In this document: positions 46,665 to 63,545 of the stretch, piece by piece
How the letters are laid out: the number at the start of each line of letters is the position of its first letter
Position numbering within the stretch: position 1 is the first letter of the stretch
From: Haploplasma axanthum
GTDB lineage: Bacteria > Bacillota_I > Bacilli_A > Acholeplasmatales > Acholeplasmataceae
Assembly: GCF_900660745.1 (NCBI RefSeq)
Contig: NZ_LR215048.1
Location: forward strand, 620,001 to 684,000
DNA length: 64,000 nucleotides
Direction of reading: 5' to 3'
Notes under the pieces: model-generated
Databases searched by the model: none
Seen by the model: the letters and a program-made list of their open reading frames with translations, nothing else
What the model was told of the DNA's origin: nothing
Translations under genes and position numbers: made by a program

Positions 46665-47963
46665 ATGTATGATAATATCATAAAAGTATTAGAAATTGAA
46701 CACTTAAGTCATAAAATTGAATCTATTGATGCAGTATCAACTGATGGAATTGTTAGTTTTCATATTAAGCTTAAAAAAGAAACTATTCCATGCCCTTTAT
46801 GCAATGGAATTACCACTACACATGACTACCAAAATAAAAATATAACTCATAGTATTTCTACAAATAGAAAATCTTATATTATTTATCGTAGTAGAAGATA
46901 TCGATGTTTAATATGTAAAAAACGTTTCTTTGAACCTAACCCTTTTACTATTAATAAAGATAGAATTAGTCATTATACTAAATTATCTATTTTAGAACAC
47001 TTAAAGAATCCTTCTAATACATTTACTAGTGCTTCTACTATCTTTAATGTTTCTACTAAAACTGTTATTGATATTTTTGATGATTATGTTGATCCAAATA
47101 GAAATAAACTACCTAAGTTTTTATGTATCGATGAATTTCATGTTTCAAAAAGGACTAAACATCCTTATGCTTGTCTATTCTTAGATTTTGAAACAAAAAA
47201 AATAATTGATGTTTTAAAAACTCGTCATAAATCATATCTATTAGAATATCTATCTAGTCTTAAACATACTGAATTAGATAGTGTTAAAGTAGTTATTATT
47301 GATATGTGGAAGCCTTATAAAGACGTTATATCTAAAGTTATGCCTAAAGCTTTAATATCTATTGATTCTTTTCATGTTATTAAACATATTAATGATATCG
47401 TTAATAAGCATCGTATTAAAGTAATGAATAAATATGCTGGTAATATTGAGTTTAAAACTTATAAGAATGATAAATATTATATGTTAAAGAAGTTTCATTA
47501 TTTCTTTACTAAAGAATACGATAATATCTATAATGGTTATATTTCTATTCCTAAGTTTAGAATTAGTCTTAATAAATCTTCTATTAAAGATTTTCTTTTA
47601 TCCATTGATGATGATTTAACTGAAGTTTATAAAATCAAGGAAGAATATCGTGAATTTAATAGAAACTCTAATTTTGATGATGCTAAAGAATTATTATCTG
47701 ATTTAATTACTAAATATCGTAATCACAGGTTAGAAGATATTAGATCTTTTGGTAAATTACTTTCTAATTGGAAAGATGAGATTATTAATTCCTTTATTAA
47801 ATCTGATTCTAACAGAAGATTATCTAATGGTCCAATTGAAGGTACTAATTCTAGAATAAAGACTATTATTAAGACTAGTAATGGGATTAAAAGTTTTAAG
47901 AGATTAAGAGCTAGAATCATTTATTCTATTAATAAAGATGTGGCTCTTAAAATACCTGAATAA
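46665..47963 (+). CDS. ISL3-family transposase
   Basis: The 432-residue DDE transposase is intact. The N-terminal zinc-binding part has IPCPLCNGITTTHDY and RRYRCLICKKRFFE, followed by a helix-turn-helix (about 105-145). The catalytic triad is visible as D156 (LCIDEFHVSK), D213 (VVIIDMWKPYKD) and E392 (NGPIEGTNSRIK), the standard spacing of ISL3. CAAGGAGG precedes the ATG, and a promoter-like TTATTATAG lies upstream. No frameshift is seen, so the element may be active. Confidence 0.93.
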   Translation: MYDNIIKVLEIEHLSHKIESIDAVSTDGIVSFHIKLKKETIPCPLCNGITTTHDYQNKNITHSISTNRKSYIIYRSRRYRCLICKKRFFEPNPFTINKDRISHYTKLSILEHLKNPSNTFTSASTIFNVSTKTVIDIFDDYVDPNRNKLPKFLCIDEFHVSKRTKHPYACLFLDFETKKIIDVLKTRHKSYLLEYLSSLKHTELDSVKVVIIDMWKPYKDVISKVMPKALISIDSFHVIKHINDIVNKHRIKVMNKYAGNIEFKTYKNDKYYMLKKFHYFFTKEYDNIYNGYISIPKFRISLNKSSIKDFLLSIDDDLTEVYKIKEEYREFNRNSNFDDAKELLSDLITKYRNHRLEDIRSFGKLLSNWKDEIINSFIKSDSNRRLSNGPIEGTNSRIKTIIKTSNGIKSFKRLRARIIYSINKDVALKIPE

Positions 47964-48248: not shown

Positions 48249-49127
48249 ATGAGTCTTATGATCAGTATGATTAAGCAAAGAGAGGTACTAAGTATTTCTG
48301 AACGTGCAGTATTAGATTATTTAATTGCTAATAAAACAATACTTAAAGATTTATCAGTTGAAAGTGTTGCACAAGGAGCATTTACTTCTCCAGCTTCAGT
48401 TGTAAGAATGTGTAAAAAACTTGGATATAAGGGTTTTAAAGAATTTAAAGTTGATTTTTTATTAGCTAATTCAAAGATTGAAATTCCAAATAATAAAGAA
48501 TATGAAGATGTTATATTGGGCAAAAATCTTGAGATTAGTAAGGGGCGTAGAGCAATTGAGAATAATATTAAAGCACTAGAAGATACATTAAAATTATATT
48601 CGGATCAATCAATTAGTAAAGCGGCAGAAATTATTATGACTTCAAGAAAAACTTTATTGTTTGGAAAAGGTTCTTCATATTTAGCTTGTAAAGATTTTCA
48701 AATGAAACTTAGAAGAATTGATAAGTTTTGTATAGCACAAGAAGATTCACATGAACAGTTAGTTGATGCAACTTTTTTAGATAAGCGGGATGTTGTTGTT
48801 TTAATTTCGAATTCTGGAGAAACACAAGAGATTATTCAAGCAGCAATTGTTGCAAAAGAAAATAATGCTCAAATAGTTAGTATAGTTAAGGCAGGGAAGT
48901 CTTTTTTGGCTGAATTATCAAATATAACATTATACACATCTGCTTTAGAGGGTGATTTTAGAAGTGCAGCAATGACTTCAAGAATTTCGCAAATGGCAAT
49001 TATTGATGCTCTATTTTCAACATGTGCATTCTATGATTTGGATAGATCAGTAAGAAAATTAGAAAGAACATATCAGACATTTAAAAAGTATAAGAACAAA
49101 ACAAATAATTTTTCAAAAAAGAATTAA
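48249..49127 (+). CDS. RpiR/MurR-family transcriptional regulator
   Basis: The 292-residue protein has an N-terminal HTH_6 domain (about 1-77, SERAVLDYLIANK and TSPASVVRMCKKLGYKGFKE) and a C-terminal SIS sugar-phosphate-binding domain (about 125-255, VVVLISNSGETQEIIQAAI). Regulators of this family that sit beside MurNAc genes (MurR) sense MurNAc-6-phosphate. That is the product of the kinase encoded by the next gene, so MurNAc-6P is the likely effector. AAAGGTGA precedes the ATG. Its own terminator separates it from anmK. Confidence 0.9.
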   Translation: MSLMISMIKQREVLSISERAVLDYLIANKTILKDLSVESVAQGAFTSPASVVRMCKKLGYKGFKEFKVDFLLANSKIEIPNNKEYEDVILGKNLEISKGRRAIENNIKALEDTLKLYSDQSISKAAEIIMTSRKTLLFGKGSSYLACKDFQMKLRRIDKFCIAQEDSHEQLVDATFLDKRDVVVLISNSGETQEIIQAAIVAKENNAQIVSIVKAGKSFLAELSNITLYTSALEGDFRSAAMTSRISQMAIIDALFSTCAFYDLDRSVRKLERTYQTFKKYKNKTNNFSKKN

Positions 49128-49269: not shown

Positions 49270-50409
49270 ATGAAAAAAATTGGTGTAGGTATAATGAGTG
49301 GAACATCATTAGATGGTATTGATGTTGCAGTAGTAGAAATTAATCATTATAAAGAGAATACAAAGATAACTACAATTGCTTGTGAAACAATTTTATTCGA
49401 TTCAGAAGTTATTAATAAAATAAAGGATGTAATTGATCTTGAAAAATCAAATGTTCAAAAAATTACAAGCTTAAATTATGAATTAGCGATTGTATTTTCA
49501 AATGCAGTTATTGAAACCTTTAATAAGAATAATTTAGATATCAAAAATATAGATTTTGTTGCGAGTCATGGTCAAACAATTTGGCATCAACCTAAAAATG
49601 AAAATGGTTTTGTTAAATCAACCTTACAAATTGGAGAAGGTGCAATATTAGCAGATAGATTAAAAACTACTGTTGTTTCAAATTTCAGAGCTGCAGATAT
49701 CGCTGCTGGTGGAGAAGGTGCACCACTTGTTTCATATGTTGATAAGTTACTTTTCTATGACAAGAATAAGAATATTGCTTTACATAATTTAGGAGGGATT
49801 TCTAATTTGACTTTATTGGCAAAAAATGATTTAGTGGCTTATGATACTGGCCCTGCAAACATGATGATAGATTATGCAATGAAAAAATTATTTAATCAAG
49901 ATTATGATTATAAGGGGTTATGTGCAAGCAAAGGAAATTTAATTCCTGAAATGTATGAAGAAATTATGAATTTAAATTATTTTAAATGTCCATACCCAAA
50001 GACAACAGGAAGAGAACTTTTTGGTGATAAGTATACTGAATTATTGGTCAATAAATATTCTAAACATGATAGGTATGATATTATTAATACTTTGACTATG
50101 GTTACTATTAACAGCGTTGCAAATGAATATAAAAAGTTAATTGATAAATATGGAAGACTTGATGAAATTATCTTTTCTGGTGGTGGAGCACATAATGAGT
50201 TTGTGATTCTAAATATAAAAAAACGTTTAGTCAATGCGCGTGTTTCACTTATAGATGAATATGGAATATCGAGCGATTATAAAGAAGCAATTGCATTTGC
50301 AATATTAGGAAATGAAACATTACACAAATTTCCATCAAATGATATTAAAGCAACTGGTGCAAAAAAAAGAAGTATTTTAGGGCAAATAAATTATTATTAT
50401 GAGGAGTGA
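49270..50409 (+). CDS. anmK: Anhydro-N-acetylmuramic acid kinase
   Basis: AnmK converts 1,6-anhydro-MurNAc, the end group left by lytic transglycosylases, to MurNAc-6-phosphate using ATP. The 379-residue protein is of normal length. It begins MKKIGVGIMSGTSLDGIDVA and has VASHGQTIWHQP, AADIAAGGEGAPLVSYVD, NLGGISNLTLL, AYDTGPANMMID and FSGGGAHNEF, all conserved in the family. GAGATGGTG precedes the ATG. It is the first gene of a tightly packed run of five (to 59100). The etherase MurQ, needed to go on to GlcNAc-6P, is not in this window. Confidence 0.96.
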   Translation: MKKIGVGIMSGTSLDGIDVAVVEINHYKENTKITTIACETILFDSEVINKIKDVIDLEKSNVQKITSLNYELAIVFSNAVIETFNKNNLDIKNIDFVASHGQTIWHQPKNENGFVKSTLQIGEGAILADRLKTTVVSNFRAADIAAGGEGAPLVSYVDKLLFYDKNKNIALHNLGGISNLTLLAKNDLVAYDTGPANMMIDYAMKKLFNQDYDYKGLCASKGNLIPEMYEEIMNLNYFKCPYPKTTGRELFGDKYTELLVNKYSKHDRYDIINTLTMVTINSVANEYKKLIDKYGRLDEIIFSGGGAHNEFVILNIKKRLVNARVSLIDEYGISSDYKEAIAFAILGNETLHKFPSNDIKATGAKKRSILGQINYYYEE

Positions 50410-50414
50410 AATTT

Positions 50415-51623
50415 ATGAAACTTTTTTATTATAAAAAACCAACAGAACCAATCAATTATTTTGATAGTAATGAACAAGTAATAATTCCTGAAAAATATCA
50501 CGAAAAGAAAGTAAGAGCATTTTGGGTATCAAATGTTGTTAATATTGATTTTCCAGTTTTAAAAGATTATAAAGAGTATAAAGATAAGATTAATGAAATG
50601 TTTAAAATAGCAAAAGAGTTTAATATTAATACTATTTTTTATCAAGTTAGACCTATGAATGATGCATTCTACGAATCAAAACTAAATCCATATAGTAGAT
50701 ATTTAACTGGGGAAGAGGGATTAAAACCTAGCTTTGATGTTTTTGAATATATCATAAAAAAAGCAAAAGAACATAAAATTGCAATTCATGCATGGTGTAA
50801 TCCATATAGAGTATCAATGAAGTTAGATATAAATAAGAATGAATATTTGAAGACACTTGATGATTTGAATTTTGCAAAAAAGAATCCAAATTTGGTTATA
50901 ACTGATAGTAATAATCAATTAATTCTAAATCCTGCACGGGAAGAAGTTAAAAAATTTATAATTGAATCTATGTTAGAAATAATTGATAAATATGATGTAG
51001 ATGGAATTCATTTTGATGACTATTTTTATCCTTATTCTTCTCTAAGTGCTCATGATAATGATCTAAATGATTATGAAGAAGCAAAGAATGATTATTCTAC
51101 AATTGCAGATTTTAGAAGATATCATATATCGGATATAATAAGAAGATTAAATGAAAAAATTAAAAAACGTGATAAAAATATAATGTTTGGAATTTCGCCT
51201 TTTGGTATTTGGAGAAGTAAACAAAATGATGAGAGGGGATCTAATACAGCTGCTAATACTAGTCAAAGTTATGATACACAATATGCAGATTCATACAATT
51301 GGATCAAAAATGGATATATTGATTATATTGTTCCACAACTTTATTGGGAATTTGGTCATCCGGTTGCACCATATGCTGATTTAGTAGATTGGTGGACGAA
51401 TATAATTAAAGATACAAAAGTTAAGTTATATATAGGGCATGCACTTTATCGACTTGGAAATGAAGGAGAATTTGAGAATCCAATAGAAATAGTCAATCAA
51501 ATAAAGTATGCAAATAAGTATAAAGAAGTAAATGGAAATGTCTTTTTTACATATCATACATTTAAAGAGATTGAGAATAAAAAAGGTGTTTTAGAAGTAA
51601 AGAAATTATTAAAGGGAGAATAG
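50415..51623 (+). CDS. Cytoplasmic GHL10 (DUF187) glycosidase-like protein
   Basis: The 402-residue protein is a single GHL10 domain (YngK-related glycoside hydrolase-like family) with no signal peptide or membrane segment. Motifs are VRAFWVSNVVNIDFP, FYQVRPMNDAFYESKLNPYS, IHAWCNPYRVS, DGIHFDDYFYPYS with D201 and D202, FGISPFGIWRSK and VPQLYWEFGHP. The acidic pair in HFDDYFY is the probable catalytic region. The ATG at 50415 follows GAGGAGTG by seven bases, just after the anmK stop. It resembles the second GHL10 domain of the next protein more than the first. Its position suggests it acts on imported fragments to feed AnmK; that is inference. Confidence 0.85.
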   Translation: MKLFYYKKPTEPINYFDSNEQVIIPEKYHEKKVRAFWVSNVVNIDFPVLKDYKEYKDKINEMFKIAKEFNINTIFYQVRPMNDAFYESKLNPYSRYLTGEEGLKPSFDVFEYIIKKAKEHKIAIHAWCNPYRVSMKLDINKNEYLKTLDDLNFAKKNPNLVITDSNNQLILNPAREEVKKFIIESMLEIIDKYDVDGIHFDDYFYPYSSLSAHDNDLNDYEEAKNDYSTIADFRRYHISDIIRRLNEKIKKRDKNIMFGISPFGIWRSKQNDERGSNTAANTSQSYDTQYADSYNWIKNGYIDYIVPQLYWEFGHPVAPYADLVDWWTNIIKDTKVKLYIGHALYRLGNEGEFENPIEIVNQIKYANKYKEVNGNVFFTYHTFKEIENKKGVLEVKKLLKGE

Positions 51624-51624
51624 A

Positions 51625-54600
51625 ATGAAAAAAATATCAAAGTTAATAATGGTTTTTATGGTGTTAGTAATGTTAACAAGTATTTTATCGCTTAACATAC
51701 ATGCAAATGAAAATATGATTCAACTTGAAATAGGAACATCTAAAATAACATATGCTGATAATACGCCTGTTATGGTTCCAAATAACTATATAGAAAAAGA
51801 TAAAGAATTTAGAGGTGTTTGGATAGCAACTGTTTGGAATATTGATATGCCAGCAACAGCTAAAGATATTGAATTGTATAAAGCAGCATATAGGGAAAAA
51901 CTTGATTTAGCACTAAGTTACAATTTTAATGCGATATTATTTCAAGTAAGAGGGATGAATGACATATATTATGAATCTGAATACGCAGCTTTTTCAAAAT
52001 CTTTAACCGGTAATGAAGGAGAAAATCCTGGTTGGGATGTTATGCAGTTCTTAATTGATGAAACACACAGTCGAGGAATGGAATTTCATGCATGGATGAA
52101 CCCTTATAGAGTTGTTAGTTCTGGAGAATTTAATCCTTCATTATTACATCAAGATAATTTTGCTAGACAAAGACCGGATTTAGTTATAAAAAGCGGTGAT
52201 GCACATATTTTAAATCCAGGTGAACCAGAAGTTCAAGAATATATAAAAGATGTTGTTAGTGAGTTGTTTGTAAAGTATCCAAGTGTTGATGGAATCCATT
52301 TTGATGATTATTTTTATTTTGGAGGTAATGCTGAAGATCAATTAACATATACAAAATATGGAAGTCAATATTTAACAATCCAAGATTTTAGAAGAGATAG
52401 TATTAATAAAATGATTAAAAGTATTTATGAAGAAGTAAAGAACTTTAATTTAATAAATAGTAAAAATGCAAAGTTTGGAATATCGCCATCTGGTATATAT
52501 AAGAACAAGACAGCAAGTCAACCAGACGGATCAAATACTGGGGGTCAAGAACATTATAATTCGCATTTTATTGATACAAAAAAATGGATTGAAGAAGGAT
52601 GGTTAGATTATGTTACACCACAAATATATTGGCAATTTTCAAATACGCTTGCTCCATACGCAGAAGTTGTTAAGTGGTGGGTTGATGCTGTAAAAGATAC
52701 AAACGTTGATTTAATCATAGGACATTCAGTCTCCGAAGGAACATGGAATTCATATGAACGTGCGGCACAAGTTCTTTTTAACTCGCAGTTTGAAGAAATA
52801 AAAGGATCGATATTTTATTCATTAAGAAATATTGATTCTATTGGACGATTTGAATATATTAAAAACAACTTTTGGAAAAATAGCATTCCAACCAATTATG
52901 CTAATAGTAATTTAGATGTTCCAAATTATCAAGTTATAGGAGAAAAAAATGAAGATGGAACATATAAAACTAGTGTCTTAATTGAATTTAGTTCTAACTA
53001 TGAGATTGAGTATAAGATAGGAAATGGCAATTGGCAAGTATATAATAGTCAAATTTTCTTGGATCATCATGGTGAAGAAAGTATATATTATAGAGCAAAA
53101 GATAACGAAAATACTAGTGTCGTTAGAAGAATAGCAATAGTCATTAATAAGAATAATAATAATCTTCCTGTCATTATAGTAAATGGAGAAAAAGAAGGAA
53201 ATGATTATGTTGGTGAAGTTGAAATAGTAATAACTGCTGAACCGAATAGTCAAATTGAATATTATATTATGAGAGGATTGGGAAGTGTTGCAGAATATAT
53301 TCCATATACGGGACCAATAAAATCAAATGTAGTATACAATCATCGTGTTTTTGCTAGAACGATTGAAGGAAATACTCCCTCAGCAGAAGTAATAAAAGAG
53401 TTTAAGATTATTGCTAAATCTTATGATGCACCAACAATCATAGTTACAGGGGATGGAATTGATCCAAATTATACTAATGCAAGAATAACGTTTGAAAGTG
53501 ACGCCCTTGAAATTCAATATCGAATTAATGGAGGAACATGGAAAACATATGTTAATGGTATTGATATTGTTAATAAAGGTGAATATTTAATTGAGGTTAG
53601 AAATAATGATGGAAAAAAAGAAGTTGTTTCTAAAAGAATTTATATTGATGAAGCAGAATTAGATGATGTAAATATAATAATTGAGGGTGTATTTAATAAT
53701 AATAAATATACAAGCTATACAGAAGTTAGTTTTAGTGAGGTAAATTCACCTAATGTTGTTATGTTTAGATATAATTATTCAAATAATTGGTCTAATTGGA
53801 TGGAATATAAAGAAAAGATAGTAGCAAAAAAGAATGGATTATATTTCTTTGAATTTTATGTTTTGAATAAGAATAACAATCAAAAAACTGAGACAATGGA
53901 AGAATATTTTAGAGTTGAAGTTGAATATGATTTACTTGTTGATAAAGTAATTAGAAATGATATTGAATTAAAAAAGATAAACGGTGAATCCATACTTTTA
54001 CCAACAGACTATATTGAAAAAGATAAGCAAATTAGAGCAATCTGGTTTTCAACAGTTAGCAATATTGATCTACCAAGAATGGGAACTGACAGTGTCGATG
54101 AATACAAAAATAGAATTATAGCAAGTTTTGATAGAATTAAAGAAACTAATCTTAATACTATTTTCTTCCAAGTTCGTCCGATGAATGATGCATTATACTA
54201 TTCAGAATACGCACCTTATTCTAGATATATAACTGGAGTAGAGGGAAAAAATCCAGGTTTTGATATTTTAGAATTTGTAATTAAAATTGCACATGAAAGA
54301 GGTATAGAGTTACATGCATGGTTAAACCCTTATCGTGTATCAAATGGTAGTGGAAGTATTGCTGCACAATTAGCATCTTTACATGATAAAAATTTTGCAA
54401 AACAAAATCCAGATTTAGTTTTAGCAGATTCAAAAGGACAATTAATTCTTAATCCAGGTGAACCAAAAGTACAAGAATATCTTGACAATGTAATAAAAGA
54501 AATAGTAACTAAATATAATGTTGATGGTATTCATTTTGATGACTACTTTTATAGCTATAGTGGAACACCAGAAGAAAATGATAGACAAACATATATTAAC

Positions 54601-55320
54601 AATAGAACAAACAATGAATCTCTTGGTGATTGGAGAAGAAGAAATGTAAATACTGTAGTACGAGATGTATCAAATATTATTAAAGAACAAAATACCTTAT
54701 TAAACAAAAAAATAAAGTTTGGTATTTCACCATTTGGAATATGGCGTAATAAATCAAATGACCCTAATGGTTCTCCAACAAATGGTCTTCAAAGCTATGA
54801 CTCACAGTATGCTGATACCAAAAAATGGATTGAAGAAGGTTGGCTAGATTATGTTACCCCACAACTATATTGGAGTTTTGATACAAAAGCTGCACCGTTT
54901 GCTGATCTAGTTGATTGGTGGTATGAGTTAACGGAGAAGAATAATGTTGGATTAATTATTGGGCAAGGATTATACAGATTAGATTCAAGTGAAGCAGCAT
55001 TTTGGAATTATGAAAATGAAATGATTGAGCAATTAAGGTTTTTAAGTAGTTATGAAAATTTATTAGGAACATCATTCTTTACATACACGACAATTACAAA
55101 AACGAATGTTAAAGGAATTACTACAACACTTGATTTCTTAAAAAACTATTATTGGAAAACAACTGCTGATTTCCCATGGGAAACTAATATATCAACAATA
55201 GATTCTAATAAAAATAATAAAAAAATACTTATTATAAGTATTGCTGGTGGAGTATTTATTTTAGCAATTACCACAATAACTATTATTTTAGTTAGAGTTA
55301 AGAGAAAAGAAAATGTTTAA
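51625..55320 (+). CDS. Membrane-anchored protein with two GHL10 glycosidase-like domains
   Basis: The 1231-residue protein has a signal peptide (cleavage near IHA-NE, residue 27), GHL10 domain 1 (about 52-420), a beta-rich linker of Ig-like or chitobiase-C-like repeats (about 425-770), GHL10 domain 2 (about 790-1175), and a C-terminal membrane segment (about 1198-1225) with a basic tail VRVKRKENV. It would face outside, fixed to the membrane. Both domains keep GIHFDDYFY (D227/D228, D972/D973) and PQIYW/PQLYW. Domain 1 has diverged at GISPSGIYKNK, where domain 2 has GISPFGIWRNK. It starts one base after the previous stop and overlaps the next gene by eight bases. The substrate is probably peptidoglycan glycan, judged from neighbours. 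Confidence 0.85.
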   Translation: MKKISKLIMVFMVLVMLTSILSLNIHANENMIQLEIGTSKITYADNTPVMVPNNYIEKDKEFRGVWIATVWNIDMPATAKDIELYKAAYREKLDLALSYNFNAILFQVRGMNDIYYESEYAAFSKSLTGNEGENPGWDVMQFLIDETHSRGMEFHAWMNPYRVVSSGEFNPSLLHQDNFARQRPDLVIKSGDAHILNPGEPEVQEYIKDVVSELFVKYPSVDGIHFDDYFYFGGNAEDQLTYTKYGSQYLTIQDFRRDSINKMIKSIYEEVKNFNLINSKNAKFGISPSGIYKNKTASQPDGSNTGGQEHYNSHFIDTKKWIEEGWLDYVTPQIYWQFSNTLAPYAEVVKWWVDAVKDTNVDLIIGHSVSEGTWNSYERAAQVLFNSQFEEIKGSIFYSLRNIDSIGRFEYIKNNFWKNSIPTNYANSNLDVPNYQVIGEKNEDGTYKTSVLIEFSSNYEIEYKIGNGNWQVYNSQIFLDHHGEESIYYRAKDNENTSVVRRIAIVINKNNNNLPVIIVNGEKEGNDYVGEVEIVITAEPNSQIEYYIMRGLGSVAEYIPYTGPIKSNVVYNHRVFARTIEGNTPSAEVIKEFKIIAKSYDAPTIIVTGDGIDPNYTNARITFESDALEIQYRINGGTWKTYVNGIDIVNKGEYLIEVRNNDGKKEVVSKRIYIDEAELDDVNIIIEGVFNNNKYTSYTEVSFSEVNSPNVVMFRYNYSNNWSNWMEYKEKIVAKKNGLYFFEFYVLNKNNNQKTETMEEYFRVEVEYDLLVDKVIRNDIELKKINGESILLPTDYIEKDKQIRAIWFSTVSNIDLPRMGTDSVDEYKNRIIASFDRIKETNLNTIFFQVRPMNDALYYSEYAPYSRYITGVEGKNPGFDILEFVIKIAHERGIELHAWLNPYRVSNGSGSIAAQLASLHDKNFAKQNPDLVLADSKGQLILNPGEPKVQEYLDNVIKEIVTKYNVDGIHFDDYFYSYSGTPEENDRQTYINNRTNNESLGDWRRRNVNTVVRDVSNIIKEQNTLLNKKIKFGISPFGIWRNKSNDPNGSPTNGLQSYDSQYADTKKWIEEGWLDYVTPQLYWSFDTKAAPFADLVDWWYELTEKNNVGLIIGQGLYRLDSSEAAFWNYENEMIEQLRFLSSYENLLGTSFFTYTTITKTNVKGITTTLDFLKNYYWKTTADFPWETNISTIDSNKNNKKILIISIAGGVFILAITTITIILVRVKRKENV

Positions 55321-56329
55321 TAAAATTAAAGATATTTTAAATGATGGAATAGAAAATGGGGATTTTCCAGGTGGAAACTTTTGCTTGATAGAAAATAATC
55401 GAATCAAATGTGCTTATTTGGGATATAAGAAAATAGTTCCTAAAAAAGAGAAGTTAGTATCAAATGAAATATATGATATAGCATCATTATCAAAGATTAT
55501 AGTAACAACTACCTTGATTTTTAGATTGATTGAAAGAAACATGATTACATTAAAAACACAAGTTAAAGATATATTAAAAGAATATTTACATGATACAACG
55601 ATATTAGAATTGTTGTTGCACACATCAGGACTAGCACCTGTGGTTCAAAACAGCTATGAAATTAAAACTAAAGAAGAATTGATTAATCAAATATATTGTG
55701 AAAAAATGACGTATGAGCCATTTAGCAAAATAGTTTATTCAGATACTGGGTATATATTACTTGGATTTATTATAGAAAGAGTTGTAGGAGATACAATAGA
55801 TAAAATTGCAGAAAAAGAAATTTTTGTGCCTTTGAAAATGACTAAAACATCATATTTTCCAATCAAAGAATTATGCGCTCCAACCGAATTGGTTGAAGAT
55901 ACATTATTGCAAGGAATTGTTCATGATGAAAGAGGAAGAATCCTTGGTGGTTTAAGTGGTCATGCTGGAGTTTTTTCAACTGCTGAAGACATAAGTAAAT
56001 ATATACTTAGTATACTTAATGATGATTTAGTTATGTCAAATAAAAATAAAGAACTTATTTTTGATACAACATTAATATCAAAAAACATGCAAGATGAGAT
56101 AGTATCTAGAACATTGGGATATCAAAAATTTTCATTCTTACCAGAGCATTACAATGATTTAATAACACATACTGGATTTACTGGTTGTAATATGTGGATT
56201 GATAGAAATGAAAAAAGAGGGTTTGTATTACTGACAAATGCAATTCATCCAAAAAGAGAAAATAATAATATTTTTAAATATAGAATGAAAATATTGAATT
56301 TATTTTATAAGGAGGAGGTTAAAAAATGA
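55313..56329 (+). CDS. Beta-lactamase-fold serine hydrolase, cytoplasmic
   Basis: The 338-residue protein belongs to the class C beta-lactamase/penicillin-binding-like family. The SXXK motif is S58-L-S-K61 (DIASLSKIIVTTT), the Tyr motif is Y142-S-D (KIVYSDTGYILLG), and HTG is at 286-288 (ITHTGFTGCNMW). It lacks a signal peptide. In B. subtilis a protein of this fold (YbbE/AmiE) is reported as a MurNAc-L-Ala amidase in a muropeptide-recovery cluster. The genomic company here makes a similar role plausible, but esterase or peptidase activity cannot be excluded. It overlaps its neighbours at both ends (8 and 4 bases), so it is translationally coupled. Confidence 0.85.
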   Translation: MFNKIKDILNDGIENGDFPGGNFCLIENNRIKCAYLGYKKIVPKKEKLVSNEIYDIASLSKIIVTTTLIFRLIERNMITLKTQVKDILKEYLHDTTILELLLHTSGLAPVVQNSYEIKTKEELINQIYCEKMTYEPFSKIVYSDTGYILLGFIIERVVGDTIDKIAEKEIFVPLKMTKTSYFPIKELCAPTELVEDTLLQGIVHDERGRILGGLSGHAGVFSTAEDISKYILSILNDDLVMSNKNKELIFDTTLISKNMQDEIVSRTLGYQKFSFLPEHYNDLITHTGFTGCNMWIDRNEKRGFVLLTNAIHPKRENNNIFKYRMKILNLFYKEEVKK

Positions 56330-59100
56330 AAAAAATAGTTTTAAGTATTGGGATTTTAGTATTCTTTTCGATTTTATTAGTTGGTTGTTCTAAGGATAAA
56401 ATTGAAATTAAGTTAAAAAGTGACAGTGTCCAAATTAAAGTTGGTGAAGAGAAAAACGTTGAGTTTACAACAAGTGATGAATTAGGACTTAACTTTGAAA
56501 GTGGTGATGAAACTGTTTTAACAGTTAATGAAAGTGGAGTATTCAAAGGAATTAAGAAAGGGAAGACCTTTATTAAAATTACATCTAAATCAAACTTGAA
56601 GAAAACAGTAAAACTTGATGTTGAAGTATATGAAGGGGAAATTGAAATTTTATTAGTGCTAAAAAGAATGGGTTTAGGAATAGATACTTCTAAAAAAATC
56701 GATTTAACTACGAATGATCCATTAGGACTTATTTATGAAACATCTGATGAAACAATTGTAACAGTAAACTCCGAAGGTGAAGTAAAAGGAATAAAACAAG
56801 GAAGAGCGATTATAACTATACTATCTAAATCTGATTCAAAAGTTAAAGAAAGTATTGAAGTCTTAGTAACTGAAGAAGTTGCAGTTAAACAAGGTGCAAA
56901 AGCTAATGATGAGTTAGTAATTAATGATAAAAAATATATATATGGTGAAAATCTTTTTGCTACTATTAATGATGCTGTAAATACTATTTCCAGTGGAATA
57001 ATTATTGTTGATACAGGTGCATATAAAGAAAACATTACTTTTGAATCAGACTTTGAATTAATTTCAAATGGAAAAGTTACTTTAGAGGGAGAGTTCAAAG
57101 GGAATAATATTTCACTTAGATTTAAAGGATTTACTTTTGTTGGAAATACAAATATAAAACTTGATAATAAGTCAGAATTTATTTTTGAAGAAAATGAGGT
57201 TAGTGTTGATAAAGATTTTATTATAATGAACAACTCTAGTCAAATAAAGATTGTATCAAATAATATTGAAGCAAAAAACAGTACTGCAATAACTATTAAT
57301 GATTTTGATGTACAAGGAGATTATTTGATAGAAGATAATGTAATTACAGATAGTCAAATTGCAATTTTAATAAAAGCGATTGATAAACTGGAAAGAAAAG
57401 CAAATATAAAATTATATAGAAATAAAATTGACAATGTTAATACAGCTTTTGATGTTGATTTAGGAAATAAGAATAAAACAGGTAATTACATTGCATATGG
57501 AAGATTTAATGAAGTAACTAACTATGATGTAGCAATTAACAATCGCACTGAAGATAAATTTGAATGGACACTAAATTATTGGGGTAATACAGCATTAGAT
57601 ATGTCCAAATTTATCAATGTTGATAATACAATGCTTAGAGAACCGTATAAAAATGCAATTGATATTCTTAGTAAAAAAGATTATAAACCGAATGTTCCCG
57701 TTAAAGTAATCATTGAGAACCCAATTGGAAGAATTGAATTAGGTGAAAGTTACAAGTTTGATGTAATAACAATTCCATATACTGCAAGTAAAACAACAAG
57801 ATGGGTTGTATCTAAGCAAGGATTGATTGAAGCATCAGCAACAACAAATACATTCAATCCGATTCAAAGTGGTGAGTTAAATATAAAAATCTCATCAGCT
57901 GCTAATTCTAATATATTTGATACGGTTGATTTGATAGTTACAACTGATCCAGGGATACATTTAACACCATCAATTGATAAACAAGATATTCTTGTTGGTG
58001 ATGATTTTACACTTACAGCTGAACCATTCCCGTATAATTATGCAAATAAACAAGTCAAATTTATATCATCAGATGAAAATATTGCTACAGTTGATGAGGG
58101 AAAAGTAAATGTTATTGGTGCTGGTGACTTTAGTATAACTGTAAAATTGCTTGATGATAAATCAGTATTTGAAATAATAGAATTTACAAGTTATGATGAG
58201 TTGGATGATAATAATATCATAGATTTTCTAGTGAAAAGGCAAATGTTATACTCAAAAATTAGATCATTTCAAGTATTTGGAACTAGTCATAATTTTACTT
58301 CAACACACTATGATAGTGTATCAAGACTTACTTACGGAGAGATAAAAAGAAACACAGATATGATCATTCCTGTTACAGCAGATCTACGACCAGGAACAAA
58401 AAAGAATTCTAATATTAAAGAAGAGTATAAGTTTAATGATGATAATGTTGTTTGGATTGTAATGCATGAAACAGGAAGCACATCAACAGCTTCTGGGGCT
58501 TATTCACATGCTAAGTATTTAATGACACAAGCGACAACAGGGGTTCAAAGAGTTGCTTCATGGCATGCAACAATTGATAGTAAAGAATTATATCAACATA
58601 TACCTTTTGATGAAGTTGCTTATCATGCTGGAGATGGTAGTGTACTTCCTGGTATGAGTAGTACATATCTTGGTGGTGGAAATAGAAATGGAATTGGAAT
58701 TGAAATGGCAGTGAATGATGACGGCAATATTATGAAAACATGGCAACGTGCTGCAAAATTTGCCGCTGAGTTATTAGTTCAATATAATTTACCAACAACA
58801 CAAATTTCATATCATCAAGATTTTAGTGGAAAACTTTGCCCACAATCTATGATTAGAGCAGATTTACAAGGATTATTTGAAGAATTTGTTGAAAATGAAT
58901 ATGAGTTGTTAAAAAGATTTCCAAATGTAAAAAGTATTGAATTAGTATCAAGTAATGAAGAATACCTTGAAAATACTGGGGTTATTGTTAAGAATCCAAA
59001 TAAGACAATGACAATTGAGTATGATCTTATTATTAAGTTTGATAATGATACTGAGATGATTAAAACATTTAAAACTTATTTACCAGGTATGTGGAAATAA
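56326..59100 (+). CDS. Large lipoprotein with Ig-like, beta-helix and peptidoglycan amidase domains
   Basis: The 924-residue protein has a lipoprotein signal ending LLVGC (C21). Two BIG2-type Ig-like domains follow (about 25-100 and 105-185, e.g. VNESGVFKGIKKGKTFIKI). After them come a beta-helix region resembling pectate-lyase-like repeats (about 205-400) and further Ig-like parts (about 465-640). The C-terminal part is an Amidase_2/PGRP-type N-acetylmuramoyl-L-alanine amidase (about 700-865). Zinc ligands are in place: H714 (IVMHETGS), H830 and C838 (YHQDFSGKLCP), with catalytic K836. It would cut peptide stems from peptidoglycan at the outer face of the membrane. GGAGGAGG precedes the ATG, which overlaps the previous stop. 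Confidence 0.9.
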   Translation: MKKIVLSIGILVFFSILLVGCSKDKIEIKLKSDSVQIKVGEEKNVEFTTSDELGLNFESGDETVLTVNESGVFKGIKKGKTFIKITSKSNLKKTVKLDVEVYEGEIEILLVLKRMGLGIDTSKKIDLTTNDPLGLIYETSDETIVTVNSEGEVKGIKQGRAIITILSKSDSKVKESIEVLVTEEVAVKQGAKANDELVINDKKYIYGENLFATINDAVNTISSGIIIVDTGAYKENITFESDFELISNGKVTLEGEFKGNNISLRFKGFTFVGNTNIKLDNKSEFIFEENEVSVDKDFIIMNNSSQIKIVSNNIEAKNSTAITINDFDVQGDYLIEDNVITDSQIAILIKAIDKLERKANIKLYRNKIDNVNTAFDVDLGNKNKTGNYIAYGRFNEVTNYDVAINNRTEDKFEWTLNYWGNTALDMSKFINVDNTMLREPYKNAIDILSKKDYKPNVPVKVIIENPIGRIELGESYKFDVITIPYTASKTTRWVVSKQGLIEASATTNTFNPIQSGELNIKISSAANSNIFDTVDLIVTTDPGIHLTPSIDKQDILVGDDFTLTAEPFPYNYANKQVKFISSDENIATVDEGKVNVIGAGDFSITVKLLDDKSVFEIIEFTSYDELDDNNIIDFLVKRQMLYSKIRSFQVFGTSHNFTSTHYDSVSRLTYGEIKRNTDMIIPVTADLRPGTKKNSNIKEEYKFNDDNVVWIVMHETGSTSTASGAYSHAKYLMTQATTGVQRVASWHATIDSKELYQHIPFDEVAYHAGDGSVLPGMSSTYLGGGNRNGIGIEMAVNDDGNIMKTWQRAAKFAAELLVQYNLPTTQISYHQDFSGKLCPQSMIRADLQGLFEEFVENEYELLKRFPNVKSIELVSSNEEYLENTGVIVKNPNKTMTIEYDLIIKFDNDTEMIKTFKTYLPGMWK

Positions 59101-59154
59101 TTGAAAGTTTTTTTTAGAAGTTGAAAAAAAAAACAAAAGAGTTGAAAAGAATTA

Positions 59155-59201
59155 GAAAAGCGCTGTCACTACAAAAAAATGATAGCGCTTCATGCTATAA
59201 T
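59155..59201 (+). promoter_or_regulatory. Promoter with paired AGCGCT operator-like sites
   Basis: Two palindromic cores AGCGCT (59159-59164 and 59184-59189) lie 25 bases apart in AAAGCGCTGTCA and TGATAGCGCTTCA, both LacI-family-like. Together AAGCGCTGTCA and TGATAGCGCTT also form an 11-pair inverted repeat. TATAAT follows at 59196-59201, with no good -35 box. The sites cover the -35 region, suggesting control of the ABC transporter by a LacI-type regulator not in the window. No T run follows, so a terminator is unlikely. Confidence 0.6.
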
Positions 59202-59228
59202 TTCAGTGATAAAAGGGAGGATTCAAAT

Positions 59229-60569
59229 ATGAAAAAAATAGTATCAATTTTAGTAATAATTTTAATTAGTGTTGTTGCTGTTTCTTGTAGAAAAGAAGAG
59301 GAAGTAAAGACAATTGTAATAATGCATGGATCAGTTGGTGAAGTTGATCCATTCCATATTGATTACAGTACAAGATCAGATCGTGAAGAGAAGCAAGCAT
59401 TGCAAAGAAAAGTTGAAGAAGAATTTAATATAAAAATTGAATATAAACCATATCCAAGCAATGCGGGATGGGGACCAGCAAGAGTTAATGCAATAATTGA
59501 AGCATATCAAGCAAAGAAACCATTAGCCGATATATATTGGACAACAACAAGTTGGACAAGTAGATTAGCAGATTCATATGCTATTTCTCCAGTTGATGAG
59601 TGGATGCAAGAATATGGAAGCAATATTGATCAAACTGTTTATGAAATAGGTAGTTATAATGAAAAATTATATTCTTTCTTTCCTGAAAAAGCTACTGGAC
59701 AATTAGGTCTATATTTTAATGAAAATTTACTTAGAGATAAAGATATTGAAAATCCTGTTGACATATTCATAAGAGGTGAATGGACATGGAGCAAGTTTAA
59801 AGAATGGGCAGAACAAGCTCAAGCGAAAATGAGTAAAGAAGCAAGCAATGAACAGTATGTACTTGGCGGTATGTTACCTATATGGACTCAATCACTTATC
59901 CCATTAAATGGAGGAACATTGATTAATAAAGAAACAAAAAGAGTTGCATTTACACAGGCACCAGCACTAGAAACGTATGCGTTCATGCAAGAATTGTGGA
60001 ATAATCAATTATTTGAACCTAAAGGTGAATATGATACTGGAAGTGCTGAATGGAATAGTGGACGTGTATTAATGCATCCAGGTGCATTTTGGTTTTTAAA
60101 TGCAGATAACAGATGGAAAGGATTAAGTTTTGATTTAGGTTATGTTCCTTATCCAGTTAGTGATAGTTTTAAAAGCAAAGGTGGCGAATATATAACATAT
60201 GTTTCAGGTGAAGCAGTATATAATGTCGCTAATAGTGAAGATAAAGAAAGACAAAAGCTAGCATTTCAAGTTTGGAATGCACTACAATTATGGAAAACAC
60301 CTGAATTCCAAGAAAGAGAATTTAGTGCAAAACTTAGAAGTAATTTCGGTGGTAATGATAAATACGTAAATGCATTTTTATCAGTATACAACAATGTTTA
60401 CTTGGAGCTAGTTGATGATTTAGGAATAAGTGCTTATGGTGATGGGGGATGGAGAAGTACAATCGGTGCGGCAATTAAAGGTACAGATGGTAAAGAACCA
60501 AGATCTGCAGTTGAATCAATTGCGCCTATATATCAAGAAGCATTAGATTCATTTTTTGCAAAAAAATAA
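59229..60569 (+). CDS. Sugar-type ABC transporter substrate-binding lipoprotein
   Basis: The 446-residue family 1 extracellular solute-binding protein has a lipoprotein signal ending VAVSC (C20). The start is the ATG at 59229 after AAAGGGAGG; the frame is open further upstream but through the promoter. Features include VEEEFNIKIEYKPYPS, ADIYWTTTSWTS, WTWSKFKEWAEQAQ and a Trp-rich middle, typical of oligosaccharide binders of the CUT1 class. The ligand is not defined by sequence; next to the peptidoglycan-cutting genes a muropeptide or aminosugar is plausible. Confidence 0.88.
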   Translation: MKKIVSILVIILISVVAVSCRKEEEVKTIVIMHGSVGEVDPFHIDYSTRSDREEKQALQRKVEEEFNIKIEYKPYPSNAGWGPARVNAIIEAYQAKKPLADIYWTTTSWTSRLADSYAISPVDEWMQEYGSNIDQTVYEIGSYNEKLYSFFPEKATGQLGLYFNENLLRDKDIENPVDIFIRGEWTWSKFKEWAEQAQAKMSKEASNEQYVLGGMLPIWTQSLIPLNGGTLINKETKRVAFTQAPALETYAFMQELWNNQLFEPKGEYDTGSAEWNSGRVLMHPGAFWFLNADNRWKGLSFDLGYVPYPVSDSFKSKGGEYITYVSGEAVYNVANSEDKERQKLAFQVWNALQLWKTPEFQEREFSAKLRSNFGGNDKYVNAFLSVYNNVYLELVDDLGISAYGDGGWRSTIGAAIKGTDGKEPRSAVESIAPIYQEALDSFFAKK

Positions 60570-60583
60570 ATAAGAACATATTC

Positions 60584-60614
60584 AATTCCTCTCCAAAGTG
60601 TTTGGGGAGGAATT
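60584..60614 (+). other. Strong hairpin between the two binding-protein genes
   Basis: AATTCCTCTCCAAA (60584-60597) pairs with TTTGGGGAGGAATT (60601-60614), 14 pairs with one T-G, three-base loop. No T run follows. Such hairpins after binding-protein genes often protect the upstream mRNA, giving more binding protein than permease; here this is inferred. The 3' arm also contains GGGGAGG, which would be sequestered. Confidence 0.75.
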
Positions 60615-60633
60615 ATTAAAGAGGAGTGCTGAA

Positions 60634-63545
60634 ATGAAAAAGATTATAATAATTACACTATCAATATTGGTTACTTTTTTTGTTTTTGCAACCGTTAAAA
60701 ATATAATAGATAACTCATCAAAAAATTATCTTAAACAAAACATTGTGAATAAAGAGGATATTGATTTTTCAAGTTTTGAAAATAGTAGTTCAAGTGATTA
60801 TTATCACTATATAAAAAAATATGATATGAAGTATCCTGCAAATGAAGAGATTTTAATTGAAGGCAAAAATTTTACTGATGCAACATCGGATATAGAAATA
60901 TTGTCAAAGTTTGAAGGAGAAAATGATGTTATTTTAACTTCTGATGAAGGAGATATTATATGGAGTTTTAATGTTGAAAAAGATGGATATTATAATATCG
61001 GTATTAATTATTATCCGTATGAAGGTAATGGTTCGAATATTGAAAGAACGTTACTAATTAATGATGAAATTCCTTTTAATGGAGCTGAAAATTTAGTTTT
61101 ACATCGCTTATGGGGAAGTGAAACTGAAATAAAACAAGATTTGTATGGTAATGATATTAGACCAAGTCAAGTTGAAAAACCAAATTGGATTAAGAGTTAT
61201 TTTAAAGACTCTGTTGGTTATGTTAATGGTAAGTATGCTTTCTATTTTAAACAGGGTGAAAATACAATAACTTTAAGAAGCTTAAGTCAACCCATGGTTA
61301 TTAAAAACTTAATAATAGAATCAATTGAAGAATTGAAGACATACGAAGATTTGAAAAAAAGTTATGAAGAAAAAAATATGAGTTAATAAATGAAAATGTT
61401 AAGTTATTTGAAGCAGAAAATCTGAAAAATACAACATCACCCACATTATATCCATTAAATGATACTGGTGCTTCAACATCACCAACAGACCCAAAATATA
61501 TAAAATTAAATATTATAGGTGGAGATAATTGGAGAATTTCTGGTGATAGAATCACTTGGAATTTAAGTGTTGAAAAGTCTGGTCTATATAATGTTAGTTT
61601 AAGAGTTAGACAAAATCTTGCAACTGGAATGGTTGTGACTAGAAACATATATATTAATAATGAAATTCCTTTTAAAGAATTAGAAAATTATACGTTTAAA
61701 TTTAATAGTTCCTGGAGAATACAAACGCTTGGAACAGATAAAGAGGCGTTTAAATTTTACTTTGAAGCTGGAAAAGAATATGAATTTTCTATGGAAACAT
61801 CGTTAGGATCATATGGACCAAAGATTGCTCAAATTGAAAATGTTATTTCAAATTTAAGTAAAATTTATCGTGAAATACTTGTTTTTACAGGACCAGAACC
61901 TGATCCAAATAGAGACTATCAGTTAACAACAAGAGTTCCAAATCTAATTTCAAGATTAAATGCAGAATTGGAAGAACTACACAAGATAAGAGATAAAATA
62001 ATCGAAATATCTGGTTCGAAAAGTGAAAAAACAGGTATTTTGGATACTATAATTTTACAAATTGAAGATTTTTTAAAGAAACCAAGTCAAATCCATAAAA
62101 AACTAACAACATTCAATAATAATGTATCATCGCTTGGGACACTTATTATTCTATTGAGTGATCAGCCACTTGAGCTTGATTACATAGCAGTTCATGGTAG
62201 TGATGGGAAACTACCTAAAAATTCTGTAAATATATTTAAACAAATGTTTTTTAGTATTAGAGCATTCTTTGCATCATTTACTACAGATTATTCATCAGTT
62301 GGAAAAACAACTAAAGATGCAAATGAAACAATAAATGTATGGCTCACAGTTGGTAAAGATCAAGCAAATATTTTGAGAAAACTTATTGATGAAAAATTTA
62401 CACCAATGCATGACATACAAGTTGATTTAAAACTAGTAAGTAGTGCATCATTATTACCTGCAACTTCCTCTGGAAAAGGACCAGATGTTGCAATGGGAGT
62501 AGGAACTAATGTTCCTGTAAATTATGCACTTAGAAATGCAAGTTATGATTTAACAAAATTTAGTGATTTTAAAGATATTATTAAAAGATTTAATAGAAGT
62601 GCTTATGAATCATTTGAATTTGGTGATGGTACTTATGCACTTCCAGAACAAGAAATATTTATGATGATGTTTTATAGAACTGATATTTTTGATGAACTTG
62701 GATTGAATGTTCCAAATACATGGCAAGATGTTATTAAAATGATTCCTGATTTACAAAAATATAATTTAGAATTCTTCTTACCAGTTCCAAGAACACAAGG
62801 TGCAGTTGTTAATCTACCACCAAATCCGATATTCTCAACTATGTTTTATCAAAATGGAGGAAGCTTCTATATTAACAATAATACAGAAAGTGGATTTAAT
62901 GAGGGATTAGGTCCAGAAGTATTTGAGACTTGGACTCAGTTTTATACTGATTATTCTTTTCCAGTTGAAGCTAATTTTGCAAATAGATTTAGAAGTGGAC
63001 AAATGCCATTAGGTATTACATATTACAATACTTATAATACATTAAGTGTTTTTGCTCCTGAAATACGAGGAAAATGGGGATTTTTACCAGTGCCTGGTAC
63101 TGAATATATTGATGAGAATGGTGAAAAACAGATTAGAAGAGATACAGTTTCAACTAATACTGGAGCAATGATTTTGAACAATTCGAGTAAAAAAGATGCA
63201 TCATGGGAATTTTTAAAGTGGTGGACATCTACAGATACACAAGTTAGATTTGGACGCGAAATGGAAGGTATTTTAGGTGCTGCTGCAAGATACCCGACAG
63301 CAAATGTTGAAGCATTTGAAAGTCTACCATGGAAACGTAATGAACTTGAGGTTTTAAAAGAACAATGGTCATGGGTACGAGGAATACCTGAAGTTCCAGG
63401 ATCATATATGACAGGTAGACATTTGGATAACGCGTTTAGAATGGTAATTAATGAAACTGCAAATCCGCGAGAAGTTATATATGATTATGTTCAAATTATT
63501 AACGAAGAAATAAATAAAAAACGTAAAGAATTTAATTTGAATTAG
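60634..63545 (+). pseudogene. Substrate-binding protein with tandem beta domains, frameshifted in an A7 run
   Basis: Frame one starts at the ATG 60634 (GAGGAG seven bases upstream) and encodes an N-terminal membrane segment and a beta-sandwich domain with WSFNVEKDGYYNIGINYY and LLINDEIPF, ending at TAA near 61386. A second frame, open from 61368, continues with YELINENVKLFEAENL, then a similar domain (WNLSVEKSGLYNVSLRV, IYINNEIPF). A coiled segment and a family 1 solute-binding domain follow to 63545 (ALPEQEIFMMMFYRTDIFDE, AMILNNSSKKDASWEFLKWW). One extra A in the seven-A run at 61370-61376 restores one protein of about 970 residues. It may be a true mutation, a read error, or rescued by transcriptional slippage. 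Confidence 0.8.

Follow-up and report, generated by a model that had tools for sequence, protein, structure and literature searches.

We describe a locus of Haploplasma axanthum, a member of the Acholeplasmataceae that appears to live without a cell wall, in which two adjacent genes encode three GHL10 domains, one inside the cell and two outside. These domains probably (we put the chance at about three in four) represent the polymer-cutting core of a catabolic locus for the glycan of peptidoglycan, through which this bacterium would use other bacteria's walls as food. The sequence establishes the identity of the domains, their compartments, the content and order of the genes, their conservation and the lack of the tested wall-synthesis genes; the substrate, the cleavage chemistry of each domain, the specificity of the transporters, the order of the steps and the nutritional purpose we infer. 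Wall-less bacteria are often pictured as simple scavengers, and the literature on this order concerns the loss of wall genes. A conserved muramyl-sugar locus of about 38 kb, kept despite lost wall synthesis, would explain the diets of some Acholeplasmataceae. It would also allow GHL10 chemistry to be studied cleanly, as no host wall interferes, and the combination of a cytoplasmic and a tandem protein would represent an ancient, testable division of labour inside one enzyme family.

GHL10 domains and their neighbours

The window, i.e., the whole stretch of DNA that was analysed, comprises 64,000 nucleotides (Table 1). The Pfam family PF02638 matches the single-domain protein (402/405 aa) once (E 6e-65, 220 bits) and the 1231-residue protein twice (E 3e-127, 424 bits), as compared to a cut-off of 27.9 bits, whereas no NCBIfam model matches the single-domain protein. 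Chance similarity as the source of the GHL10 assignment is ruled out by the scores together with synteny. An AGGAG ribosome site precedes the ATG at position 50415, and the start chosen in the first-pass annotation, including its D201/D202 numbering, is therefore right. That annotation had described a signal-less single-domain GHL10 protein directly before a two-domain protein with a signal peptide and a C-terminal membrane anchor. Both parts agree with our results, the former with the Pfam matches and their coordinates, the latter with the hydrophobic segments, which are absent from the single-domain protein and comprise residues 7-25 and 1203-1221 of the tandem protein. Among relatives, a hydrophobic N-terminus was found in none of 21 single-domain copies and in all 20 tandem proteins, so the arrangement of one domain inside and two outside is a conserved property.

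Table 1 Features of the GHL10 locus, with positions in the window
Feature	Position	Strand	Basis and remarks
MurR/RpiR-family regulator (HTH_6 + SIS), first gene of the cluster	48249..49127	+	Pfam, NCBIfam; first in relatives' clusters too
AnmK, anhydro-N-acetylmuramic acid kinase	49270..50409	+	PF03702 E 6e-93; NCBIfam equivalog NF007142, 482 bits vs cut-off 435
Single-domain GHL10 protein, 402 aa from ATG 50415, no signal peptide (cytoplasmic)	50415..51623	+	PF02638; Cwp19 (5oq2) E 1.5e-82; fold match TM 0.82/0.91; no membrane segment
Tandem GHL10 protein, 1231 aa	51625..55320	+	Order: signal sequence, domain 1, middle region with OmpL47-type domain, domain 2, C-terminal membrane anchor
GHL10 domain 1, residues ~41-403, acid pair D227/D228	51745..52833	+	Cwp19 fold match TM 0.78/0.84
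GHL10 domain 2, residues ~788-1162, acid pair D972/D973	53986..55110	+	Cwp19 sequence match E 1.9e-88
C-terminal membrane anchor, residues 1203-1221, followed by a basic tail	55231..55287	+	Hydropathy; aligned relatives likewise hydrophobic at the C-terminus
Beta-lactamase-fold PF00144 protein, no signal peptide, AmiE/YbbE-like by position, predicted cytoplasmic	55313..56329	+	Pfam; sub-threshold PBP4B/AmpH matches; no membrane segment
Lipoprotein with Big_2 and C-terminal Amidase_2 (N-acetylmuramoyl-L-alanine amidase)	56326..59100	+	PF01510 E 8.5e-18, PF02368; lipobox LVGC
ABC solute-binding protein 1	59121..60569	+	PF13416; kept in relatives' clusters
ABC solute-binding protein 2, split by a frame change near 61360-61376	60598..63545	+	SBP_bac_1 on the 3' part; tblastn frame switch; A-run

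The motifs HFDDYFY and PQ(I/L)YW are seen in each of the three domains, and the acid pairs D201/D202, D227/D228 and D972/D973 lie at the residues first assigned to them. In a genus mate, domain 1 has IQFDDYFY instead of IHFDDYFY (L037 10869-14624). The pocket of Cwp19 is formed by W36, Q77, W127, R132, D195, D196, Y197, S250, Q295, Y297, G328, F367 and S368 (PMC5765458). All of these residues, including D196, are identical in the three window domains, except that F367 is replaced by Y in domain 1 and S368 by T in the other two. Tyrosine occupies the F367 position in 16 of 17 domain 1 sequences, while the cytoplasmic copy and domain 2 have phenylalanine. A comparison of structures, as suggested by the first-pass annotation, gave Cwp19 as the best match of the AlphaFold models of both the cytoplasmic protein (mean pLDDT 87) and domain 1 (mean pLDDT 75). 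These two thus share the Cwp19-like TIM barrel by fold, and domain 2 does so by sequence.

AnmK and the first GHL10 gene are 5 bp apart, the two GHL10 genes 1 bp, and the next two genes overlap slightly. The PF00144 protein stands at the place of AmiE in the cluster; it matches no AmiE-specific model and has no close solved relative. The real start of solute-binding protein 1 is probably an internal ATG ahead of a lipobox that ends in AVSC. Solute-binding protein 2 is encoded by a single open reading frame of ~970-990 aa in relatives. Its break in the window lies at an A-rich stretch and may reflect a pseudogene, slippage or an assembly error; the locus may hence be decaying in this genome, unless the assembly is at fault. 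Just upstream of the cluster, at 46665-47963, lies a transposase-like gene (ISL3-like by eye).

A conserved muramyl-sugar cluster

The GHL10 genes belong to the opening part of a cluster of ~38 kb that extends past the window and encodes MurR, AnmK, the GHL10 proteins, two amidase-type enzymes, ABC transporters, a DUF5696 protein, NamZ, NagZ, a MurNAc/GlcNAc kinase, MurQ, NagA and NagB. The 20 kb that follow the window (L006) contain the genes for NamZ, NagZ, the kinase, MurQ, a GNAT protein, NagA, NagB, a GH20-like protein (PF00728/PF18088, L006 15666-17399), an esterase and a NAGPA protein. The MurQ etherase (TIGR00274, 386 bits vs cut-off 302) and the NagZ-type hexosaminidase (NF003740, 220.8 bits vs cut-off 207) exceed the cut-offs of their models, as do NagA and NagB. 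NamZ was recognized by PF07075 and PF20732 and by a match to 4k05 (E 4e-83), and a MurNAc/GlcNAc kinase of known structure (8zo3) is a relative of the BadF-type kinase of the cluster. For uptake, the cluster encodes ABC permeases and binding proteins, while no PTS gene for MurP-type uptake was found among the scanned subset of cluster proteins. The DUF5696 protein (877 aa, L006 3567-6200), which is conserved between two permease pairs, is probably tied to uptake.

GHL10 matches occur in 53 of the 150 genomes of the order, 42 of them above the family cut-off, and the usual layout is an open frame of ~400 aa adjoining one of 1200-1400 aa. The surrounding DNA was examined in about 20 genomes, in which the order of genes is nearly constant; small gaps are contig ends or single missing genes. 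The recurrent 5' part consists of MurR, AnmK, (GH4), GHL10, tandem GHL10, the beta-lactamase-fold protein, the Amidase_2 protein and solute-binding proteins 1 and 2. It is followed by permeases, an NHL-type protein, a 213-aa membrane protein, DUF5696, further permeases and a 217-aa membrane protein, and then by NamZ, NagZ, the kinase, MurQ and usually NagB. Conservation of the triad spans Acholeplasmataceae and, outside the order, a few families of Bacilli. The same layout is found outside the order but within the class (families f16 and f24; genomes G217, G390 and G413), and other families of the class have a looser version. In GHL10 loci of other lineages, a gene for AnmK, MurQ, NamZ or NagZ lies within 10 kb in 11 of 75 cases, a count that includes several close kin and stands without a background rate.

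Two genes of relatives are absent from the window genome. A GH4 enzyme whose nearest relatives are 6-phospho-beta-glucosidases is encoded between AnmK and the cytoplasmic GHL10 protein in many relatives (L040 14434-15741), though not in the genus mate of the window genome; it might split phosphorylated disaccharides. The other gene encodes a surface protein of ~800 aa with no clear family, between Amidase_2 and solute-binding protein 1 (L040 2290-4764).

The host, its likely substrate and the proposed pathway

The window genome is 99.66% complete and contains no FtsW/RodA, PBP transpeptidase, MurG or Mur ligase, each of which was found in walled genomes that served as positive controls. A single Mur-ligase-type domain was considered as a Mur ligase and rejected, as it is FolC, encoded beside ValS. 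Judged by this tested set of genes, the host appears to be wall-less. Within the 150-genome sample, FtsW/RodA had no match in the family of the window genome (f1), and FtsW/RodA and PBPs were confined to families f3 and f4. Acholeplasmatales are treated as largely peptidoglycan-deficient, and peptidoglycan is described as lost several times in this region of Bacilli (PMC10868615); the terms 'muramic', 'recycl' and 'hydrolase' are all absent from the main text of that study. Given a host that apparently has no wall of its own, foreign peptidoglycan is the most likely target.

Outside the membrane, the lipoprotein amidase would remove the peptides, and the anchored tandem GHL10 protein would cleave the GlcNAc-MurNAc strands, leaving, by analogy with Cwp19, at least some 1,6-anhydroMurNAc ends. 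The oligosaccharides would enter via the solute-binding proteins and permeases. Inside, the imported chains would be shortened by the cytoplasmic GHL10 protein, and NagZ and NamZ would take off GlcNAc and MurNAc from the ends, while the beta-lactamase-fold protein may strip leftover peptide. AnmK would then phosphorylate anhydroMurNAc, and the BadF-type kinase MurNAc and GlcNAc. MurQ would yield GlcNAc-6P, which NagA and NagB would pass on to glycolysis, with MurR as the putative regulator of the locus.

Two points stand against a feeding locus: secreted amidases and GHL10 proteins also serve ordinary turnover in walled bacteria, and the substrate range of GHL10 is not fixed, as DogH of Deinococcus reportedly acts on starch (PMC9967864). 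If divergent enzymes still made a thin or cryptic peptidoglycan, the locus could recycle it in the style of Bacillus subtilis, whose murQRP-amiE-nagZ-ybbC cluster overlaps in content (PMC5061867); in addition, G004, a genome of the walled type within the order, combines FtsW/PBP with a related GHL10 locus. However, the window genome without FtsW/RodA, PBP, MurG and Mur ligases, the family without an FtsW/RodA match and the peptidoglycan deficiency described for the order make such remnant turnover highly improbable. It is also very unlikely that a host glycan other than peptidoglycan, mucin-type or chitin-like, is the target and that the MurNAc genes serve a side stream only. NagA, NagB and the GH20-like gene would suit GlcNAc polymers generally. 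Yet AnmK, MurQ and NamZ are specific to muramyl sugars and, from family to family, belong to the cluster's core, and the amidase is conserved beside the GHL10 genes.

Within the preferred reading of feeding on foreign walls, the source of the anhydro ends that AnmK would use has to be considered. AnmK is encoded by 36 of the 150 genomes of the order, all 36 of which have a GHL10 match of at least 100 bits; conversely, 36 of the 38 genomes with GHL10 at this score encode AnmK. FtsW and AnmK co-occur in G004 only and in none of the genomes that are at least 90% complete (Fisher p = 0.005, a descriptive value that ignores kinship). No SLT or MltG was found in any of the 150 genomes and no GH25 or GH73 in the 61 genomes searched, including the window genome. 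Because these four tested families are absent, the GHL10 proteins are the best candidate source of the anhydro ends. Cwp19 is a demonstrated GHL10 lytic transglycosylase with 1,6-anhydroMurNAc as its product (PMC6016235). By analogy with it, and by the linkage to AnmK, the GHL10 domains studied here may produce such ends.

Escherichia coli DigH, also a PF02638 protein, degrades denuded glycans and is described as a hydrolase that frees anhydro-muropeptides from existing strand ends (PMC12288456). Thus, both characterised GHL10 enzymes in our comparison act on peptidoglycan glycan, and hydrolysis of the DigH type and transglycosylation are equally compatible with the window sequence. All three domains could be hydrolases of denuded glycan, with AnmK consuming anhydro ends premade by the transglycosylases of other bacteria, which would leave the feeding role unchanged and alter the chemistry. 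We regard this as a serious contender, at somewhat less than even odds. The domains are 30-38% identical to DigH, and the presence of NamZ and NagZ implies that reducing-end sugars are handled too; however, the closer match, Cwp19 (39-42% identity), itself makes anhydro ends, and none of the other lytic transglycosylase families tested occurs in the genome, while AnmK is always kept with GHL10. The first-pass annotation had raised the possibility that an enzyme encoded beside AnmK makes or frees anhydro-muramyl ends of peptidoglycan. The activities of Cwp19 and DigH, the co-occurrence of AnmK and GHL10 and the absence of other tested cutters lend good support to the direction of this proposal, which had overlooked or misjudged the apparently wall-less host, the catabolic cluster of ~38 kb, the sisterhood of the domains and the genus-level nature of a motif difference. 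A tentative extension, against which the odds lie, is that many wall-less Acholeplasmataceae are wall eaters in which GHL10 transglycosylases of both compartments themselves make the anhydro ends for AnmK, and in which a pathway best known from the recycling of a cell's own wall was turned into a feeding route, perhaps with attacks on living bacteria nearby.

Neither the enzyme families nor the general pathway is new. Cwp19 of Clostridioides difficile (PDB 5oq2/5oq3; PMC6016235, PMC5765458) is secreted, cuts peptidoglycan and has the domain family, the fold, almost all pocket residues and the acid pair (D195/D196) in common with the window domains. It has, however, one GHL10 domain with CWB2 wall-binding repeats on the surface of a walled cell, as compared to two membrane-anchored domains and a third in the cytoplasm of an apparently wall-less bacterium. 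DigH (YddW; PMC12288456) acts on amidase-stripped glycan, and the window operon likewise encodes an amidase, but DigH is a single-domain envelope protein in cell separation. The MurNAc recycling cluster of B. subtilis, murQ-murR-murP-amiE-nagZ-ybbC(namZ), also groups homologues of MurQ, MurR, AmiE-fold proteins, NagZ and NamZ (PMC5061867). There, MurNAc is imported by the MurP PTS of a walled cell, whereas the locus described here has ABC transporters, AnmK, a BadF-type kinase and GHL10 proteins, in a genome that lacks the wall-synthesis genes tested. Reliance on the muropeptides of other bacteria is known from Tannerella forsythia (PMC5388701), which is walled, auxotrophic for MurNAc and rebuilds peptidoglycan of its own; in contrast, the route proposed here leads to GlcNAc-6P. 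A search of the literature turned up no wall-less bacteria with a conserved locus for such a triad of cytoplasmic and tandem GHL10 proteins. The search, with most subscription papers outside its reach, also returned no paper that links Acholeplasma with MurQ.

Descent of the three domains

In a careful tree, from which the rows of the Acholeplasma oculi genus (g4) with its strongly diverged domain 1 were excluded, the cytoplasmic copies (support 100/96), domain 2 (100/99) and domain 1 (80/32) form three lines. Together they represent one clade (99/94), separate from Cwp19 and other GHL10 proteins. Domains 1 and 2 pair as sisters (100/97), with the cytoplasmic copy as their outgroup. The cytoplasmic copy had been considered nearer to domain 2, which raw identity bears out (47.1% vs 39.3% to domain 1) but descent does not, as its placement as sister of domain 2 was rejected (AU p=0.017). 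A smaller tree with DigH concurs, in which the domain 1 line is supported by 100/96. The duplications are therefore older than the families sampled in the order.

The QVRGMNDI and GISPSGIY motifs of domain 1 had suggested that it may bind or cut a different linkage. They are confined to the genus of the window genome (two of 12 aligned sequences), and a conserved specificity switch was thus rejected. Other domain 1 orthologues mostly have QVRPxND and a second motif ending in W.

The count of three GHL10 domains holds for the locus, but the genome encodes a fourth GHL10 protein ~156 kb away (L007 9654-11261; G000:C1 ~829.7 kb), which is secreted and groups with clostridial GHL10 proteins. Its gene adjoins an IS110-like gene, and the protein has a dockerin-like terminal repeat by eye, with no Pfam match; a 1610-aa NAGPA/metallophosphoesterase protein encoded nearby has a similar C-terminus. 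Dockerin-like ends would be odd in a wall-less bacterium. In some relatives, the secreted protein has three GHL10 domains, or an extra secreted single-domain GHL10 protein is encoded next to it (L038 5643-11561; L051 7690-14452).
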